A stretch of DNA of 21,157 nt from the IMG/VR virus record IMGVR_UViG_3300047276_000314, positions 1-21,157 of that record. One strand, written 5' to 3'. Positions 1,199-9,144 of this stretch are shown here, piece by piece. Numbering within the stretch: the first letter of the stretch is position 1; every line of letters starts with the position of its first letter. The position numbers were made by a program, and so were the translations under genes. Under the pieces are notes generated by a model, which was not told the DNA's origin, did not search any database, and saw nothing but the letters and a program-made list of their open reading frames with translations. Source of the DNA: a virus.

Positions 1199-1316
1199 CA
1201 GCGCCTGTGCTGTTTGGCGTGACATATCTTGGTCGTCTAAGGATACGCCGCAGACGATCACCGAAGTGAAGATCAACAATGCCCGCCGCGAGGGCTTCTG
1301 CGAAGGTAAGAAGTAA
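1101..1316 (+). CDS. Outer-membrane spanin lipoprotein (Rz1-like)
   Basis: 71 residues from ATG 1101, which lies within the i-spanin gene in another frame. The first 23 residues are a lipoprotein signal peptide: basic MLSNALKTR, a hydrophobic LLLATLPLFLL core, and the lipobox L-T-G-C with Cys23. The mature part has SACAVWRDISWSSKDTPQTI and a terminal Cys (FCEGKK), a pattern I associate with small phage lipoproteins after lysozymes. Partial nesting in Rz is the classic Rz/Rz1 layout. A longer version from ATG 1047 would put about 18 basic residues before the signal, so 1101 is preferred. Its TAA ends at the A of the next gene's ATG (TAATG). Confidence 0.75.
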   Translation: MLSNALKTRLLLATLPLFLLTGCFKTTAIGGTDSACAVWRDISWSSKDTPQTITEVKINNARREGFCEGKK

Positions 1317-3061
1317 TGCCTCTTGCGCCAGTCAACATTCCGCCGGGGATCGTCAAAGCGGCCACGCCGTTACAGGTCAAGGGTCGCTACTGGGACGGTA
1401 ACCTGATCCGCTGGCGTGCTGGCAAACTACTGCCGGTTGGCGGCTGGCAGCGCATTACAGCGTCACCACTTTCTAGCACGATTAGATGCTTGTTCCCGTG
1501 GGCTGGTGCAGACAATGCAACGTATTGCGCTGTTGGCTGCGAAAGCAAATTGTTCGTTCTAAATGGATCGACCTACACAGATATTACACCTCCTAATTTT
1601 GTCGCAGCCAATGCTTCTGTTTTTGGGGCATATGGGACAGCAAACTATGGCGCGACTTATTATGGATTGGACACTGATCCAACGCATCCTCGTGATCCAA
1701 CGCAGAGCTTCCTGCCGACGTTCTCTTGGACCATCGACAACTGGGGAGGCGACATCCTTGCGGTGGCATCGTCAGATGGTCGTTTGCTTCATTGGAACCA
1801 CAACGAAAGTTATGCCGAGGAAGTTGGACACAATACAATCGTCAACATTGTCCGCACGTCTAATGTGGCAACCGTTACGACGGTAAATCATCACGGATTT
1901 ATTAACGGACAAACTGTCGTCATTTCTGGGAACAGCGTAACTGGTTTGAACGGAACCTATACGATCACCAGCGTCACCAGCGATACGACGTTTACGTATG
2001 CGAATAGCGGAACAAACACCACAGGAACCGGTGGCCTTGCATCTGTTCCTGCGGCTGACCAATGCCCAATTGACAACCGTGGCGTCATCGTTACGCCTGA
2101 GCGGCACGCTGTTCTGATCGGCGCTGGCGGCAATACACGCCGCGTGGCTTGGTCGTCGCGTGAAGACTATACGGACTGGGACTTTGCTGACCCGGCAAAC
2201 ACGGCTGGCTATCTTGATCTGGATACTCAGAACAAGATCACCATGTGTGCCCCTGTGCGCGAGGGTACGCTGATCTGGACTGAGGACGAGGCATGGTTGA
2301 TGCGCTACATCGGTCTGCCGTACATCTATCAGATCGAGCGGATTGGCTTTGGCTGCGGTCTAATCGCCCCGCGCGCCTTTGCAACCTTTGCTGGCCGGTG
2401 CGTCTGGATGGGCCGTGAGAGTTTCTTCCTGTACGACGGCGGAACGGTTCGCCCGCTTCCCTGCGAAGTTGGCTCATATGTTTTCGATGACGTTGATCCG
2501 CAGGTCGGCTCACTGTGGACGCATGGCTCTGAAAACAACATCTTCCCAGAGGCGTGGTTCTGGTATCCGTCGCAAGGTTCGACCGTCCCCAACCGCGCCG
2601 TCTATTACAACTATGCTGAGGGTTGGTGGGGCATTACCGACACCATGACGCGTACGGCTGCATGTGGTTCTGGTGTATTTCGTTTCCCATTAGCTTCTGA
2701 CCAAGTTAACGACATTTTCCAGCAGGAGAACGGCTGGACTGCGGCAGGCACGCCTATCACCACTGGCCGATTTGCTGAGACTGGATCAATCAACATCCAG
2801 AACGGAAATTCCATTTCCCATATTCGCCAAGCCATCACAGACAGCGGATATGGCTATGACAGCACGCAGTTGACTTTCTTCTCATCTTTCACACCAGAGG
2901 CTCCAGAAACAACGAGTGGTCCGTACAACCCACGCGCATCTGGCTACACGGATATGCGCGTCACTGGTCGCGACTTCCGCGTGAAGATTGCTGCGACCGA
3001 GGATGGCGAGTGGTCCATCGGTGAGATGCGGTTGGAGATGATCGGAGGCGGCGGCAGATGA
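1316..3061 (+). CDS. Virion protein resembling gp10-type packaged DNA stabilisation / tail-hub proteins
   Basis: 581 residues starting PVNIPPGIVK, with early WDGNLIRWRAGKLLPVGGW, a pattern I associate with phage head-completion or tail proteins. The body is rich in aromatic and Gly residues with repeated beta-strand/turn texture, such as LLHWN, YTDWDF and FFLYDGGTVRPLP. This is consistent with the beta-rich plug proteins that close the portal after packaging in P22-like phages. Residues about 172-242 form a distinct Thr/Asn-rich module (NHHGFINGQTVVISG, LNGTYTITSV) like the small beta modules inserted in many phage tail proteins. The C-terminus (WSIGEMRLEM) again suggests a beta domain. Placed at the head of a virion gene run. 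A tail-fibre-proximal hub is the main alternative. Confidence 0.6.
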   Translation: MPLAPVNIPPGIVKAATPLQVKGRYWDGNLIRWRAGKLLPVGGWQRITASPLSSTIRCLFPWAGADNATYCAVGCESKLFVLNGSTYTDITPPNFVAANASVFGAYGTANYGATYYGLDTDPTHPRDPTQSFLPTFSWTIDNWGGDILAVASSDGRLLHWNHNESYAEEVGHNTIVNIVRTSNVATVTTVNHHGFINGQTVVISGNSVTGLNGTYTITSVTSDTTFTYANSGTNTTGTGGLASVPAADQCPIDNRGVIVTPERHAVLIGAGGNTRRVAWSSREDYTDWDFADPANTAGYLDLDTQNKITMCAPVREGTLIWTEDEAWLMRYIGLPYIYQIERIGFGCGLIAPRAFATFAGRCVWMGRESFFLYDGGTVRPLPCEVGSYVFDDVDPQVGSLWTHGSENNIFPEAWFWYPSQGSTVPNRAVYYNYAEGWWGITDTMTRTAACGSGVFRFPLASDQVNDIFQQENGWTAAGTPITTGRFAETGSINIQNGNSISHIRQAITDSGYGYDSTQLTFFSSFTPEAPETTSGPYNPRASGYTDMRVTGRDFRVKIAATEDGEWSIGEMRLEMIGGGGR

Positions 3062-3288
3062 TCATCAACCTGCCAACTCCTCCCGGCGGATACGACCGCG
3101 AGTATTTCCGTTTTGCCTTCTCGCTGTTGGAGCGGGTGCTGGGGCAGAGCATCGGCAGGTTGGAAGCCGTCGATGGTGTTCTCCTTCAGGCTCCTGATGG
3201 CGGTGTTTGGAAGGTGACGGTTGATAACGCTGGAAACCTTGTGACGACATCAGTGGCCTTGGGTCAGCAGGGAGCGCCGCCGTATTGA
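3058..3288 (+). CDS. Small virion-region protein, unknown function
   Basis: 76 residues, ATGA overlap with the previous gene. The N-terminus (INLPTPPGGYDREYFRFAFS) leads into a probable helix with LLERVLGQ. The C-terminal half (LLQAPDGGVWKVTVDNAGNL) reads like a beta-hairpin of the kind seen at tips of phage structural proteins. No catalytic motif, TM helix or Cys cluster is visible. Tight coupling between two virion genes suggests a small structural or assembly component. I do not recognise a named family. Confidence 0.7.
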   Translation: MIINLPTPPGGYDREYFRFAFSLLERVLGQSIGRLEAVDGVLLQAPDGGVWKVTVDNAGNLVTTSVALGQQGAPPY

Positions 3289-3302
3289 TCGACAGGGAAC
3301 AC

Positions 3303-3644
3303 ATGATTGCCCGTCTGGAGGCGGCGCTGGAACACGGCGGCGGCACGTTTGCTTTGCATGACATTGTCGCCGGGTTAGAAGAAGGCAGGTTCCAACTATT
3401 TTGGAACGACGGCGGTCTGGCGGTCACGGAGATCATCCAGTGCCCCCAGAAGCGATATTTGAACATCTTCCTCGCTGCAGGTGAGATGGAAGCTGTGCTA
3501 AAGTTGCACAAGAAGGTCGAGAAGTTCGCCCGCAAAAATGGGTGCAACTTCATGCAGGCGATGGCTCGGAAGGGCTGGGAAAAGTTCAACCCGGAGTTTG
3601 GGTGGCGATCCACCCACACCGTATATCAGAGGGCTTTGACATGA
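3303..3644 (+). CDS. Small GNAT-fold-like protein of the virion module
   Basis: 113 residues. A TTG at 3285 would add six residues but lacks a ribosome-binding site, while ATG 3303 is preceded by CAGGGAA, so 3303 is chosen. The order of hydrophobic strands and helices (FQLFWNDGGLAVTEII, then KRYLNIFLAAGEMEAVLKLH, then KKVEKFARKNGCNFMQAMAR, then GWRSTHTVYQ) resembles the minimal acetyltransferase (GNAT) fold found in small phage proteins of morphogenesis modules. No acetyl-CoA loop (Q/RxxGxG/A) is evident, so catalysis is doubtful. It sits between structural genes and ends with an ATGA overlap with the next gene. Function is inferred only from fold impression and context. Confidence 0.6.
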   Translation: MIARLEAALEHGGGTFALHDIVAGLEEGRFQLFWNDGGLAVTEIIQCPQKRYLNIFLAAGEMEAVLKLHKKVEKFARKNGCNFMQAMARKGWEKFNPEFGWRSTHTVYQRALT

Positions 3645-4573
3645 GCGGTGGCGGCGGAACACAGACGGTCGTGAACAAGACAGAAATCCCGCAGTGGGTG
3701 CAGGAAGCGGGGCAGCGAAATCTTGCTGCGGCTTACGATGTTTCCCGCAGCCTTCAGGGGCCGTATGAGGGGCAGCGGGTGGCGTCGATGACGCCGGGTC
3801 AGATCGGCACCATTGGAGCTATCGCCAACAATTACGCCCTCGCCCAACCTGCCTACGCCTACGCGCAACAGATGGCCGCACAGGCTGGCGGCTATCAGCC
3901 GACGCAGGTTTCTGCTGGTCAACTTAGTCAGGCTGACTTGTCTCCATACATGAACCCATACACGCAAAACGTGTTGCAGACCTCGCTGGACACCCTCAAC
4001 CAGCAGCGGCTGGCTGGTCTTAATCAGGCGTCTGACGCTGCCATCAAAGCCCGGGCGTTTGGTGGCTCTCGTCAAGCCATCCAAGAAGCCGTGGTCAACG
4101 CGGCTGCCCAGCAGCAAGCCGGTCAGCTGGCGGCGAACCTGATGGCCCAGAACTATGCTCAAGCGCAGGCTGCGGCATCTGGCGACATCCAGCGTCAGAT
4201 GGAGGCTGCCCGTCTCAATCAGGCGGCTGGTATCACCGGGGCGCAGCTGGGGCTCACTGGGGCCCAGACGCTCGGTGGCCTTGCTGGCGCGGGACAGGAA
4301 GCCTTTCTCACCGGAGCCACGGGTGCGCTGGCTGCTCAGTCCGCCATTCAACAGCAGCAGCAGGCGGAACTCGACGCCGCGCGTCAGGCGTATCAGGAGC
4401 AGCAGCAGTTCCCGCTGACGCAGCTGCAGATACCGTTGCAGGCTCTTGGCGTTACCCCATACGGCCAGACGAACACGCAAACCGGTCCCGGGCCGTCTGG
4501 GTCTGGCCTGCTGACTGGTCTTGGCGCGGCTGCCTCGGCTGCCTCGATCCTCTCGACGCTTGCATCCCTGTGA
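3641..4573 (+). CDS. Ala/Gln-rich internal or structural virion protein
   Basis: 310 residues from ATG 3641 (ATGA overlap); an upstream extension to 3542 would sit inside the previous gene. The N-terminus MSGGGGTQTVVNKTEIPQW and the motif SPYMNPYTQNVLQTSLDTL are features I associate with a phage virion family common in podovirus-like genomes. The centre (about 120-285) is dominated by Ala, Gln and Leu and should be long amphipathic helices (AAQQQAGQLAANLMAQNYAQ). A QQQQQAELDAAR stretch follows, and the C-terminus is Gly/Ala-rich and hydrophobic (SGLLTGLGAAASAASILSTL), which could insert in a membrane. This suits a DNA-ejection or internal core protein. A tail-assembly role cannot be excluded. 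Confidence 0.6.
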   Translation: MSGGGGTQTVVNKTEIPQWVQEAGQRNLAAAYDVSRSLQGPYEGQRVASMTPGQIGTIGAIANNYALAQPAYAYAQQMAAQAGGYQPTQVSAGQLSQADLSPYMNPYTQNVLQTSLDTLNQQRLAGLNQASDAAIKARAFGGSRQAIQEAVVNAAAQQQAGQLAANLMAQNYAQAQAAASGDIQRQMEAARLNQAAGITGAQLGLTGAQTLGGLAGAGQEAFLTGATGALAAQSAIQQQQQAELDAARQAYQEQQQFPLTQLQIPLQALGVTPYGQTNTQTGPGPSGSGLLTGLGAAASAASILSTLASL

Positions 4574-5256
4574 TCGACACGGCAATCCAGTTTTCAGGCG
4601 GCAAGGATAGCCTTGCCTGCCTGTACCTGTACCGTGAGCGGTGGGATACTACATATGTGGTATGGCTCGACACGGGAGCCGCGTATCCCGAGATGGTCGA
4701 GTACATGGAGAAGTGGAAGCAGCGGCTTCCTCATTTCATCCATGTGAAGTCAGATCAGCCGAGCAACGTGCGTGAGCGTGGCTGGCCGGTTGACGTGTTG
4801 CCGGTTGAGAACACGCTGGTCGGTCGCATGATTACCGGCAACGACGGGCCGCTGATGCAGTCGTATCTGGACTGTTGCGCGGTCAACATCTGGGTTCCCT
4901 TGTACAATGCCTGCAAGAAGCTCGGCATCAGGTATCTGGTAAAGGGGCAGCGCGGCGACGACCGCCGCAAGTCGCTGGCGGTCGATGGTCAAGTTGTCGA
5001 TGGCATCCAGTACGTCATGCCGATCCAAGGTTGGACCGAGGAGCAGGTATTCAAGTACCTCAAGGATGTTGAGGCTGACATGCCGCCCGGGTATGGCATG
5101 GGCGAAAAAACTGGCCGCGACTGCTGGAATTGCACGGCTTATCTGGATGACAACAGGAAACGGATATACAATCTGCCGGAAGATAAGCGCGCAGAAATGC
5201 TGCGGCGGCTGGCGATTATAGACGGTTCAATCGAAAAGCAGTGGATCAGGGTATGA
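4570..5256 (+). CDS. PAPS/APS-reductase-family ATP pyrophosphatase with Fe-S-type cysteines
   Basis: 228 residues, GTG start at 4570 overlapping the previous stop as GTGA, with no clear ribosome-binding site, so probably translationally coupled. Residues 9-14 are SGGKDS, the PP-loop of N-type ATP pyrophosphatases; LDTGAAYPE (33-41) and KGQRGDDRRKS (125-135) match the following substrate regions of PAPS reductases. Cys102-Cys103 and Cys185-x2-Cys188 reproduce the CC...CxxC spacing that holds a [4Fe-4S] cluster in assimilatory APS reductases. The C-terminal catalytic ECGLH-type cysteine is not visible. Known relatives reduce PAPS/APS, or activate sulfur transfer for DNA phosphorothioation (DndC) or tRNA thiolation. 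The role in this phage is open; lack of the catalytic Cys argues against simple sulfate reduction. Confidence 0.85.
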   Translation: MIDTAIQFSGGKDSLACLYLYRERWDTTYVVWLDTGAAYPEMVEYMEKWKQRLPHFIHVKSDQPSNVRERGWPVDVLPVENTLVGRMITGNDGPLMQSYLDCCAVNIWVPLYNACKKLGIRYLVKGQRGDDRRKSLAVDGQVVDGIQYVMPIQGWTEEQVFKYLKDVEADMPPGYGMGEKTGRDCWNCTAYLDDNRKRIYNLPEDKRAEMLRRLAIIDGSIEKQWIRV

Positions 5257-6242
5257 CCTACGAAGAACTGCTCAGACGGATTGTGCGGCTGGAAAGCGGT
5301 GGCAACCCGATGGCGCAAGCAAAGACGACTTCTGCAGGTGGCCTGTACGGGTTCACTAGCGGCACGCTTGCTAATGTTCTGAAGCGCATGGACCCTGAGA
5401 CATATGGCGGTCGGTCGGCTGATGAGCTTGCAAGCCTGAAGTTTGATCCAAATGTCTCTGCGGCTGCTGCCAAGTATCATCTCCAGAACGACATTGTTCC
5501 TGCCTTGCAGAAGGCAGACATTCCGATCAGCGGCGCGACCGCCTATTCTGGCTGGTTTCTTGGTCCGCAAGGTGCTGTGAAGGCATATCAGGCCGATCCT
5601 TCGGAAAAGATCGCTGACCTGTTTCCGAACTACATCAAGCCAAACGCTGGAATGAAATTTGAGGGAAAGCCGTTCGCCGAGTGGGATGTCGGCACATTCC
5701 AACGGTGGGCTGCGACCAAGGCTGGAACGACACCTGCCGCTCCGTCGTCCGCTGATGCTGCTCCTCTGTATTCTGGCAACAAGGCTGCACCGCAGTCTGC
5801 TGGCGAAATGCTTGCTTCTTCTGTCACTGAGCCGATTAGCAGTTGGACCGGCTGGCTCGGTCAGCGTCTTGGCGGTGGCCTCATGGGTGACACTGGAGCC
5901 AAGGTTCCTTTTGACGCACAGCGTCCGTACTCCCCCTCGTTTCAAGAGCCCATGCAGCCGATGGGCGCACAGTTTGCCGGTCAGATGCCTGTTGGTGGCG
6001 TTGGACCGATGTCGGCTCCCGGGGCAGCATCAATGGCGTTGACATCAAGGCCATTGCCACAGCCGGACACTGGGTGGAGTATGGACAAGGGAACGGCGAA
6101 AGACATCGCTGGGCTTGCATCTGCTGGCGCTGCGCTCATGGCAGCAGGCGCGCCAAAGCAAACGTGGACACCGCAGGCCCCTGCGCCTGTAAACCGAGGC
6201 CGCTGGCGGGACGATCTGTTCGCTGGACTGTTGGGGTTATAA
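5253..6242 (+). CDS. Virion-associated lytic-transglycosylase-like protein
   Basis: 329 residues from ATG 5253, which overlaps the previous stop as ATGA and follows CAGGG; a GTG at 5241 is possible but less supported. Residues 8-40 (RRIVRLESGGNPMAQAK, then GGLYGFTSGTL) match the start of a lysozyme-like transglycosylase fold, with Glu14 as the expected catalytic acid and GLYGFT in the place of the usual GLMQI/GLFQF. AYSGWFLGPQGAVKAYQADP further on resembles the phage transglycosylase pattern H-FLGPxGA. From about residue 155 the chain becomes Ala/Pro/Gly-rich and disordered. Virion transglycosylases open a local hole in peptidoglycan for DNA entry; the position among ejection-type proteins fits this. 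Confidence 0.75.
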   Translation: MTYEELLRRIVRLESGGNPMAQAKTTSAGGLYGFTSGTLANVLKRMDPETYGGRSADELASLKFDPNVSAAAAKYHLQNDIVPALQKADIPISGATAYSGWFLGPQGAVKAYQADPSEKIADLFPNYIKPNAGMKFEGKPFAEWDVGTFQRWAATKAGTTPAAPSSADAAPLYSGNKAAPQSAGEMLASSVTEPISSWTGWLGQRLGGGLMGDTGAKVPFDAQRPYSPSFQEPMQPMGAQFAGQMPVGGVGPMSAPGAASMALTSRPLPQPDTGWSMDKGTAKDIAGLASAGAALMAAGAPKQTWTPQAPAPVNRGRWRDDLFAGLLGL

Positions 6243-6243
6243 A

Positions 6244-7500
6244 ATGGCGACCATTGAAGAAATCAACGCCCTTTATCAGAGCGTGTTCAACAGACCGGCA
6301 GACACGGCTGGCGCTCAATACTGGGCAAGCACGGGCGCAACTCCTGCAGAAATTCAACTGGCGCTTGCTTCCTCCCCAGAAGCAACTGTCCGCAATACTT
6401 ATCAGCAGGTGTTTAATCGTCCTGCCGAAACCGCTGGCGTTGAGTATTGGACGCCGCTTCTGGCGTCTGGTCAGATTTCCCCTGAGAACCTTGCTGCTGC
6501 ATTCAGGGCAACGACTGAAGGCCAAGGTCTGCTCGGTGGCGGGACGACGACTGGTGGCACGACAACCGGAGCAACCACTGGAGCCACAACTGGCGGTCTT
6601 CTTGGTGGCACGCAGGCTGCGGCCAACAAGGGCATGTCGCGTGCAGAAGCGGTATCCCTGATCCAAAATGCTTATCAGAACATCTTGGGAAGACCGGCTG
6701 AACAGGCGGGCATTGATTATTGGGCTGACTTCCTAACGAATGGAACCCAGACTTGGGATCAGGTTCTTGCGAACATTAGGCGTTCAGCAGAAGCTGGAAC
6801 TTCGCAAGCTCAAAACGCACAAGCTGGCATCCGTCAGGTTCCGTTTGGATCGCAGCCAGTCGGCGGTATTGTCTATCAAACGACGCAGATGCCTTCTGCT
6901 GCATCTATCCCGTCGTTCCAGCAGTTTGCTGATCCGAACGCCACGGCCAACGCCTTCCAGCAGTCGCTGGCGTATCAGGCTGCTCTTCCGTCGATGATCC
7001 GGCCATTTAACCCGGCTGACATTCCAGCGACCTACCAGCAGATCGCCGGTCCTCGTCAAAGACTTGATATTTCAAATATTCAAATTCCTGATTGGCTACG
7101 TATCGCTGCTGCCAAAGATGAGAAGCGAGCAGATGCTCAAACTGCATCTTTGGCTGGCGGAACAACTGGGACAACCAGCGGTATCACCAGCACGACGCCG
7201 GGCGTCATCGGCACGACTGGTGGAGGAACTGTTGGTGGTGGAACAACTGGCGGGACGACCGGCGGAACAACTGGTGGGCGTACTGGGGCTGATCTGCAAG
7301 CCTTCAATCAAATCCTGAACCAGACCTATCAGACTGCACTTGGGCGTCCTGCGGAGGCTGCTGGTGCTAACTACTGGACTGGGATGTATACCAGTGGAAC
7401 GCCTTTCCAGACGATCGTAAATGCAATCATGAACTCGCCTGAAGCGCAGGGCAGGGCAGCGGCGACGACTGCTGGCGGGTTACTCAGCAATTGGGAATAA
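6244..7500 (+). CDS. DUF4214 multi-repeat protein in the virion module
   Basis: 418 residues. Four copies of a helical unit start at residues 10 (LYQSVFNRPADTAGAQYW), 52 (TYQQVFNRPAETAGVEYW), 143 (AYQNILGRPAEQAGIDYW) and 361 (TYQTALGRPAEAAGANYW). This is the xYxxxxxRPAxxAGxxYW hallmark of DUF4214. Two Gly/Thr linkers (about 98-122 and 305-346) join the units, and residues 200-300 form a Gln/Pro/Ala-rich spacer. DUF4214 is best known from large secreted or surface proteins of Proteobacteria and cyanobacteria; its biochemical role is not settled. Placed between a transglycosylase and ejection-type proteins, it is probably a virion component, perhaps surface-exposed or injected. Start ATG 6244 follows GGGG a few bases upstream. 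Confidence 0.8.
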   Translation: MATIEEINALYQSVFNRPADTAGAQYWASTGATPAEIQLALASSPEATVRNTYQQVFNRPAETAGVEYWTPLLASGQISPENLAAAFRATTEGQGLLGGGTTTGGTTTGATTGATTGGLLGGTQAAANKGMSRAEAVSLIQNAYQNILGRPAEQAGIDYWADFLTNGTQTWDQVLANIRRSAEAGTSQAQNAQAGIRQVPFGSQPVGGIVYQTTQMPSAASIPSFQQFADPNATANAFQQSLAYQAALPSMIRPFNPADIPATYQQIAGPRQRLDISNIQIPDWLRIAAAKDEKRADAQTASLAGGTTGTTSGITSTTPGVIGTTGGGTVGGGTTGGTTGGTTGGRTGADLQAFNQILNQTYQTALGRPAEAAGANYWTGMYTSGTPFQTIVNAIMNSPEAQGRAAATTAGGLLSNWE

Positions 7501-7509
7501 GAGGGCAAC

Positions 7510-9144
7510 ATGGCTGATGGCGATTTCCTTGGCGGACTGTTTGGCGGCATCAAAGATGCCGGGTCTGCACTCTATGGCCTTCTCGGTGGTCCGTCTGGCG
7601 CACCGGCTGCTGGTGGCACGACGCCGACCGACATCCTGCAGCAGTTGTCTCCCGAGGAGCAGCGCCGCCTGACTGCCTCGACACTCGGGCAACTTGGTGC
7701 GTCGCTGCTTGCTGCCGGTCAGAAGCAGATGCCAGCGCAGAGGGCGCAGGCTCTCGCGCAACTTGGCAACATTGGTCCAAACATTGACCTGCAACTCCAG
7801 CGTGCTGTCGCCGTGCGTAACCAGCAGGAGCAGCTGCGTCGGCAGAACGAGTTGTTCCCGCTGCAGAAGCAACAGATGGAGCTTGCTGCACGTTCGGCAC
7901 AGCAGCAACTTGGTATGCAACAGCAACAGATGGTCTTGCAGCAGTTGAAATTGCAGCGCGACATCCAGTTCCTTGAGAGCCAAGGTCTTGATGCAAGCGG
8001 TGCGAGAGAGCAACTTCGCATCATGCAACAGATGGGAGCAGGTATCCCGGGCGGCGCTCCTGCCGGTGGCGTTGGTGCCCCTGCTCCTACTGGTTCTGCT
8101 CCTGCCGTGTCTGCCGGTGCGTCTATGGCTCCCGGCGCTACTGTTCCACAGCAGGGGACTGGCTACACGCCGTCTCAGGCAGTGCGTGAAGAAGCTGTGA
8201 CCGAGCCGGGTTTTGCTCCGGGCATGATGGGTGGTGCGGCTGTTCCGACGCCTGCTCAAGCTCGCTCGATGGCTGGCGGAAACATCTACACCAATCTGAT
8301 GTATCTGGACCCGAACCGCGTCACTGCGGAAATTGGCCGCGCAGATGACAAGCAGGCTGCTTATGCAAAGCTGCTTGAGGAGAACGAGAAGGCGAAGCAG
8401 GAGCAGTTCAAGTTCGAGCGTGATCTATCGAAAGAATTTCGACCGACTGCTGACAGGTTCCGTGAAATCCAGAAAGGCATCCTCACGATGGGTGGCCTCG
8501 CTGGGAACAAGACTGGTATTTCGGACGTTGCCCTTATCACGTCTCTTTACAAAATCTTCGACCCGACCTCGGTTGTCTCGACTAACGAAGCCGGTCAGAT
8601 TGTCTCCGCAAGAGGCGTTGTGGATGGCACCTTCGAGCGCATGATGAACTCGATCATCAGTGGTCAGAAGCTGACGGATGACCAGCGAGCGCAGATTATC
8701 CAAGCTGCCCAGTCTCGTTTCAAAAACGAATATGCCGACTATGAGCGTTCGTTTGAAAATGCAAACAAGAACGCCCTCAACTATGGCGTAAACGCTGTTC
8801 GCACTGTTCAGGATGTGCGTGATCCGACAGTGGTTCAGCAGGTTCAAATGGAGCGTGATATTGAGCGCGCGTCGAAAACAATTTCGGCGAGAGACATCCT
8901 GTCGCTCGACATGGAAGGACTTCAGATGCTGAAGCCTGACATGATGAGCAAGGCAGCCAAGGATGCTTACAAAACCCGCATCCAGATGCTCACTGCTCCT
9001 CCAGAACTGCCTGAAGGCGTTCCGCAGTCTCAGGTTCAGGGTCCGCTCGATGTTCGCCGGTCTGGCGTGTTGCAGTCGCAGCGTCTGTATCAGACACTGC
9101 AACCTCGCAACCGTCGCCCCGACGAAAACATGCCGCTGTATTGA
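7510..9144 (+). CDS. Large Gln-rich internal virion / DNA-ejection protein candidate
   Basis: 544 residues; ATG 7510 follows a GAGGG ribosome-binding site. A glycine-rich, hydrophobic N-terminus (FLGGLFGGIKDAGSALYGLL) could contact membrane. Residues about 40-170 are strongly helical and Gln-rich (NELFPLQKQQMELAARSAQQ), followed by an Ala/Pro/Gly linker (about 178-225) and a charged helical C-terminal half (KLLEENEKAKQEQFKFERDL, KNEYADYERSFENANKNAL). Such low-complexity, coiled-coil-rich proteins after a virion transglycosylase are typical of ejection proteins (as P22 gp7/gp16/gp20 or T7 gp14-gp16 by role). No enzyme motif is visible. The assignment is contextual. Confidence 0.6.
   Translation: MADGDFLGGLFGGIKDAGSALYGLLGGPSGAPAAGGTTPTDILQQLSPEEQRRLTASTLGQLGASLLAAGQKQMPAQRAQALAQLGNIGPNIDLQLQRAVAVRNQQEQLRRQNELFPLQKQQMELAARSAQQQLGMQQQQMVLQQLKLQRDIQFLESQGLDASGAREQLRIMQQMGAGIPGGAPAGGVGAPAPTGSAPAVSAGASMAPGATVPQQGTGYTPSQAVREEAVTEPGFAPGMMGGAAVPTPAQARSMAGGNIYTNLMYLDPNRVTAEIGRADDKQAAYAKLLEENEKAKQEQFKFERDLSKEFRPTADRFREIQKGILTMGGLAGNKTGISDVALITSLYKIFDPTSVVSTNEAGQIVSARGVVDGTFERMMNSIISGQKLTDDQRAQIIQAAQSRFKNEYADYERSFENANKNALNYGVNAVRTVQDVRDPTVVQQVQMERDIERASKTISARDILSLDMEGLQMLKPDMMSKAAKDAYKTRIQMLTAPPELPEGVPQSQVQGPLDVRRSGVLQSQRLYQTLQPRNRRPDENMPLY

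Follow-up and report, generated by a model that had tools for sequence, protein, structure and literature searches.

Phage genes called cysH are among the most reported viral auxiliary metabolic genes and are read as sulfate assimilation (167 genes in PMC10914622; the Baltic Sea survey PMC9301287). One gene of this type lies between structural genes in the virus record IMGVR_UViG_3300047276_000314, of which we analyzed positions 1 to 21,157 (21,157 nucleotides, here called the window), and its position raises the question of what the enzyme does there. An earlier interpretation made from the letters of the window (the sequence-only reading) had described a PAPS-reductase-like protein that may adenylate and thiolate a nucleic acid or cofactor rather than reduce sulfate. 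The relevant features are as follows.

1316..3061, plus strand: virion structural (stabilisation) protein, PHROG_3287 (E 1.4e-82)
3058..3288, plus strand: small conserved protein, ATGA/TTGA overlaps on both sides, kept in most close loci
3285..3644, plus strand: probable GNAT-fold acetyltransferase-like protein, 119 aa (AlphaFold2 pLDDT 89.7)
3641..4573, plus strand: DNA-ejection-type (internal virion) protein, 310 aa (PHROG_4287 DNA ejection protein)
4570..5256, plus strand: predicted Fe-S PP-loop ATP pyrophosphatase, 228 aa (ORF, PF01507, PHROG_424, model), annotated elsewhere as PAPS reductase
4594..4611, plus strand: SGGKDS PP-loop, residues 9-14 (sequence; kept in 83/83 distinct homologues)
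4873..4878, plus strand: Cys102-Cys103, predicted [4Fe-4S] ligands (invariant 50/50; aligned with CC of Mtb APS reductase 7lhr)
5122..5133, plus strand: Cys185-Trp-Asn-Cys188, predicted [4Fe-4S] ligands (invariant 50/50; aligned with CxxC of 7lhr)
5253..6242, plus strand: internal virion protein with SLT transglycosylase-like N-terminus (PHROG_4067 transglycosylase), ATGA-overlap start

Genes along this operon overlap by four bases at 3058, 3285, 3641, 4570 and 5253, and the ejection gene is therefore best called as 3641-4573 and the downstream gene as 5253-6242. The enzyme ORF is exactly as had been claimed: 228 aa from a GTG start that overlaps the upstream stop as GTGA. The ejection-type protein stops about 21 aa past its GLG motif, and a Pfam search of it found no Peptidase_S74 domain. 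The product of 3285..3644 appears, from its predicted structure, to have a GNAT fold and to be acetyltransferase-like; in the PDB it most resembles GNAT enzymes, protein N-acetyltransferases being frequent among them, with Z up to 11.8. The SLT match of the downstream product scores 19.8 bits, slightly below the cut-off of 21.3. Beyond this gene, the internal-virion region encodes at 6244-7500 a protein with several DUF4214 stretches, which varies among close relatives.

The enzyme contains the pairs C102-C103 and C185-x-x-C188, separated by 81 residues; besides these four it has just two cysteines, C17 and C115, and inspection of the sequence found none past C188 and no ECGLH-like tail. The CC-x~80-CxxC arrangement of the APS-reductase [4Fe-4S] site is thus present in the sequence, while the cluster itself is predicted. 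Shuffling the protein 200,000 times produced CC-x75-84-CxxC in 39 cases and SGGKDS in none. The Pfam PAPS_reduct model (PF01507) matches well above its gathering cut-off (60.7 vs 22.5 bits), whereas the NCBIfam models for cysH (31.7 bits, cut-off 165.1) and APS_reductase (29.4 bits, cut-off 235.3) fall far below theirs, and NCBIfam DndC (TIGR03183) gave no match at E values up to 1. Values of dN/dS against relatives, 0.03-0.13 where this could be calculated, show purifying selection on the gene.

Structural comparison places the AlphaFold2 model of the enzyme (pLDDT 96.6) nearest to CysH structures, Mtb APS reductase and 2goy among them (Z 13.9-15.4), ahead of GMP synthetase (Z 12.6) and CysD (Z 12.1). 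The phylogeny against CysH, APS reductase and DndC that the earlier interpretation had proposed as a check gives a separate clade: a branch with support 95-99 sets the phage family apart, and APSR (support 100), PAPSR, CysD and DndC all fall outside it, several of the outgroup rows being long branches.

Residues conserved across the family separate it further from the sulfonucleotide reductases. The SGGKDS-type loop, CC and CxxC are each kept in 83 of 83 distinct homologues, and in an alignment of 50 members the only invariant cysteine columns are 102, 103, 185 and 188. Both cysteine pairs of the family profile align with those of the Mycobacterium tuberculosis APS reductase 7lhr. The intact SGGKDS is, on its sequence, an ATP-pyrophosphatase loop, as opposed to the S-x-x-x-E-D type of the APS reductases, which in those compared here reads S-S-L-A-[AF]-E-D or S-L-G-A-E-D. 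Hence only part of the resemblance to APS reductases noted earlier holds: the CC-x81-CxxC arrangement is indeed shared and the loop is not. In a joint alignment of 40 phage proteins with APS reductases, the position of the Lys that comes after CC in APS reductases holds I, L or M in all 40, so that this Lys is lost, and the column of the ECGLH Cys never holds Cys; in the window enzyme N/I follows CC in place of the APS-type R-K. Cysteines in the tail are sporadic (7/83 distinct homologues) and none is conserved, which bears out, for the window and for the whole family, the reported absence of an ECGLH-like C-terminal Cys. C17 was considered as a fifth, catalytic Cys and rejected; it occurs in 46 of 50 members and, being missing from four, is not universal.

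Genuine viral APS reductases served as controls. Four of them (L205-L208) carry an ECG[LM]H tail and, after CC, RK or RKV-like residues; since such reductases are present in viral contigs, the two kinds can be distinguished, and these four are usable as positive controls for viral sulfate assimilation. They come from a search of limited sensitivity with a beta-proteobacterial profile, which yielded five loci, the tail being present in four. A codon-restricted DNA pattern for KECGLH gave ten matches in viral contigs, with no CysH among the translations listed, a count that implies no rate.

The customary explanation, given in phage papers, is a canonical APS/PAPS reductase serving sulfate assimilation as an auxiliary metabolic gene. 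The PAPS_reduct score and the APS-reductase-like cluster cysteines speak for it; the missing catalytic Cys tail and APS-binding Lys, the ATP-type loop, the low scores of the NCBIfam CysH/APS models and the separate clade speak against it, as does the lack of a thioredoxin in 12 phage records, although these records may be incomplete and thioredoxin is also present in the host. Residues, models and tree lead us to reject this explanation, to which we attach a very slight probability. The sequence-only reading was thus right to doubt sulfate reduction: the catalytic-Cys tail occurs nowhere in the family and the family lies outside CysH. It had named a homologous catalytic Cys or a placement within canonical CysH as evidence against itself; both were looked for and neither was found. 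Because the loop and the cluster cysteines are kept, the catalytic Cys and the Lys are lost, the family forms its own clade and the fold is CysH-like, we consider it highly probable that these proteins are adenylating enzymes, PP-loop ATP pyrophosphatases with an APS-reductase-type [4Fe-4S] site, and not sulfonucleotide reductases. The family and its fold were already known; the non-reductase status of this subfamily is added here.

We confirmed at least 329 relatives in viral contigs (IMG/VR loci). A search of cellular genomes, one genome for each of 84,980 species, gave at least 14 candidates, of which about half are real family members, and several of these have phage-like neighbors; the family is mainly a phage family. 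The published carriers are Burkholderia Lessieviruses, in which the gene is named PAPS reductase and called a moron. In Aeromonas phage phiA008, the annotation of pA_gene0068 (L004:7977-8663) begins at 8130, too late to include the SGGRDS loop, and 7977 offers a start in the same frame.

The position of the gene is nearly fixed. Of 84 non-redundant loci, 80 have an ejection-type gene directly 5' of the enzyme, and in 74 a GNAT gene precedes the ejection gene. A second sample, selected through a nucleotide pattern within the enzyme gene and not by its neighbors, but drawn from the same collection and partly overlapping the first, gave 31/31 and 28/31, respectively. Overall, the loci come mostly from one viral collection and the neighbors were detected by profiles. 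The contexts fall into two main classes: 56 loci have ejection and GNAT proteins of families A/A and 14 are B-C/B; six more have a B-C ejection protein with no GNAT detected. Profile-profile comparison detected no relation between ejection families A and B, nor between the two GNAT families, and homology of the A with the B/C ejection families, or of the GNAT families with each other, is thus unsupported. The late-operon place between structural genes that had been reported for the window is therefore real, and its almost invariable pairing with an ejection protein, seen in two context classes, is new. In 76 of 77 loci, with and without the enzyme, a GNAT gene precedes the ejection gene; the GNAT is retained in close relatives that lack the enzyme, and an obligate GNAT-enzyme pair was accordingly rejected. 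The virion proteins listed for phage JC1 include gp64, at the ejection position, and not gp63 (GNAT) or gp65 (enzyme) (PMC9144972), so the enzyme probably acts inside the cell.

Loci found through the ejection protein revealed a second regularity. The enzyme is the next gene in 32 of the 55 loci with enough sequence, and in loci without it the ejection protein is mostly extended by a C-terminal Peptidase_S74 domain. This domain, the endosialidase chaperone, is mostly known from tail spikes and fibres. In the non-redundant loci of this search, S74 occurs in 0/49 with the enzyme and in 15/21 without it (p 7.5e-11; the 15 are 14 counted by script plus locus L260 recounted by eye). The corresponding figures for families B/C, whose ejection proteins (n=10) are too diverse for a single profile and were split for searching, are 0/10 and 26/65 (p 0.012); both p-values assume independent loci, an assumption that does not fully hold. 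The state, enzyme or S74, switches on the ejection-protein tree at least eight times by parsimony and at least four times by starred branches. For example, a locus with the enzyme (L051) and one with S74 (L285) share 91% identity over 3.8 kb, and this similarity ends 79 nt before the enzyme start. Phages with neither feature also occur, and neither is therefore essential. Examples of S74-bearing ejection-type proteins are L129:5350-6588, L130:5338-6477 and L226:2950-4143. The mutual exclusion of enzyme and S74 in an ejection-protein context is new; it may be functional, or the two may just use one slot, behind the ejection core and ahead of the gene that follows.

PP-loop enzymes with an intact SGGKDS cleave ATP between the alpha and beta phosphates and adenylate their substrates. 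An adenylating role, which had been suggested before, agrees with the intact ATP-pyrophosphatase loop, and we propose that the enzyme would bind ATP and adenylate a carboxyl or carbonyl group of its target late in infection. The role of the cluster would be structural or electrostatic, given that its ligands are four cysteines and that the family has no further invariant Cys; such a four-Cys cluster, as predicted from the alignment, would also argue against an on-protein thiosulfonate or persulfide. The likeliest target would be the co-translated ejection protein, either its hydrophobic Gly/Ala-rich C-terminus or its assembly. This protein is the best guess because it is a fixed neighbor, the reading frames overlap and S74 is excluded; that the enzyme acts on it is possible, with the balance somewhat against it. 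The enzyme would then take over a maturation for which other phages rely on S74. Taken as a whole, an adenylating enzyme that is co-translated with the ejection protein and acts on it or on its maturation is the best explanation we can offer, and we hold it tentatively, at somewhat less than an even chance. Its most specific form, in which the Fe-S PP-loop enzyme matures the ejection protein in trans, for instance by adenylating and then capping the C-terminus, and so replaces a cis-acting S74, is doubtful.

Two other proposals must be weighed against this one. Many PP-loop enzymes act on nucleic acids, and the enzyme might instead use ATP to activate a base or phosphate of phage DNA or RNA late in infection, with sulfur or another group installed via host IscS as in DndC or TtcA; the GNAT and the occasional methyltransferase would then be further modification steps. 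DndC is related by its fold class, and the methyltransferase neighbors or fusion resemble modification cassettes. A Methyltransf_11 protein adjoins the enzyme in L079, L083, L084 and L102, and in a Comamonas plasmid prophage an ORF annotated as 'methyltransferase type 11' (L143:5446-6708) has the enzyme as its C-terminal half behind a methyltransferase-like N-terminus; these five loci would also fit a nucleic-acid or small-molecule substrate. Against nucleic-acid modification, no cysteine desulfurase and no DndD were found in the 12 phage records, which may be fragments, and a host may supply the desulfurase; moreover, the cluster layout is unlike that of DndC, there is no invariant fifth Cys for a persulfide and the gene tracks the ejection protein rather than replication genes. 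We regard this proposal as rather unlikely, and a phage-encoded DndC-like system was rejected, since neither DndD nor a desulfurase was found in these 12 possibly incomplete records. The DndC/TtcA-type thiolation of DNA suggested by the sequence-only reading thus finds little in its favor, given the different DndC cysteine layout and the lack of an NCBIfam DndC match. Its wider suggestion, that the gene matters during virion production, fits the setting, but DNA need not be the target: the ejection pairing and the S74 exclusion point equally or more to a virion protein.

Alternatively, the enzyme could adenylate a metabolite on the way to a cofactor or nucleotide of benefit to the phage, and its place behind the ejection gene would be an insertion hotspot shared with S74. 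The finding of S74 or nothing in the same slot of enzyme-less phages and the repeated switching on the ejection-protein tree are what a cargo slot would give, and a moron insertion hotspot is known in Burkholderia prophages (PMC2920897). However, a neutral cargo slot should hold widely varying unrelated genes, whereas one and the same enzyme is found repeatedly, at 30-98% identity, beside two ejection families without detectable mutual similarity. A small-molecule enzyme is also improbable in our estimation.

Because the family, judged from its sequence, cannot act as the reductase for which it is named, counts of viral cysH genes need a filter based on the tail Cys and the loop type. The nomenclature of profiles adds to the problem. 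PHROG_424 (phosphoadenosine phosphosulfate reductase) is the top PHROG match of the window enzyme, which corresponds to profile positions 164-357; the profile spans both parts of the fusion, and its positions 8-106, which have no counterpart in the window protein, match separate Methyltransf_11 proteins. The name can therefore spread to plain methyltransferases. PHROG_4752, 'tRNA methyltransferase', matches the neighboring methyltransferases weakly. The link to the ejection protein, together with the S74 exclusion, provides a testable lead on how short-tailed phages mature the proteins that bring their DNA into the cell.

Among known systems, DndC shares with the phage enzyme an intact SGGKDS PP-loop, an Fe-S cluster and the broad superfamily, and it has ATP pyrophosphatase activity (PMC4611135). 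DndC is a larger protein, however, with one Cys at the CC position of the family (L124), and it acts together with DndA/D/E; according to a review, its cluster has three Cys and a Cys dyad lies apart from it (PMC10853773), unlike the four-Cys layout here. The four invariant cysteines likewise would speak against the three-Cys cluster with a free Fe site of TtcA/TtuA. DndC, SspD and BrxP are PAPS-reductase-family proteins from phosphorothioation and BREX type 4 systems; BrxP has extra domains (PMC12839542), and the PADLOC matches of the window enzyme are weak. QueC-family deazaguanylation in type IV CBASS is a case of PP-loop enzymes modifying protein (PMC11996544, PMC13279940). The QueC-family proteins (Cap9 of type IV CBASS and that of qatABCD) share the PP-loop fold and there is a weak profile match to Cap9 (9nto, E 9e-5), but they belong to another Pfam family in which the CC/CxxC four-Cys layout is not demonstrated, and the likeness is one of mode only. 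The assimilatory APS reductases (Mtb 7lhr, PaAPR 2goy) are similar in fold (Z about 14), in the CC...CxxC positions and in a GQR motif, and differ in the loop, the Lys after CC, the ECGLH tail and the clade. Also close are the Lessieviruses (Bcep22-like), whose enzymes, for example BcepIL02 gp67 and JC1 gp65, are 35% identical to the window enzyme over 96% of the length and have the same four Cys and SGGKDS. These genes are annotated as a sulfate-reduction moron, and the enzyme is described as sulfate reduction in JC1 and CSP3 (PMC9144972, PMC10269572). Although the neighboring GNAT and ejection families are unrelated to those of the window as far as profile comparison detects, the Lessievirus-type enzymes fall in the same clade as the window enzyme and lie in the same gene order: stabilisation/head-closure, GNAT, virion protein, enzyme, virion protein.
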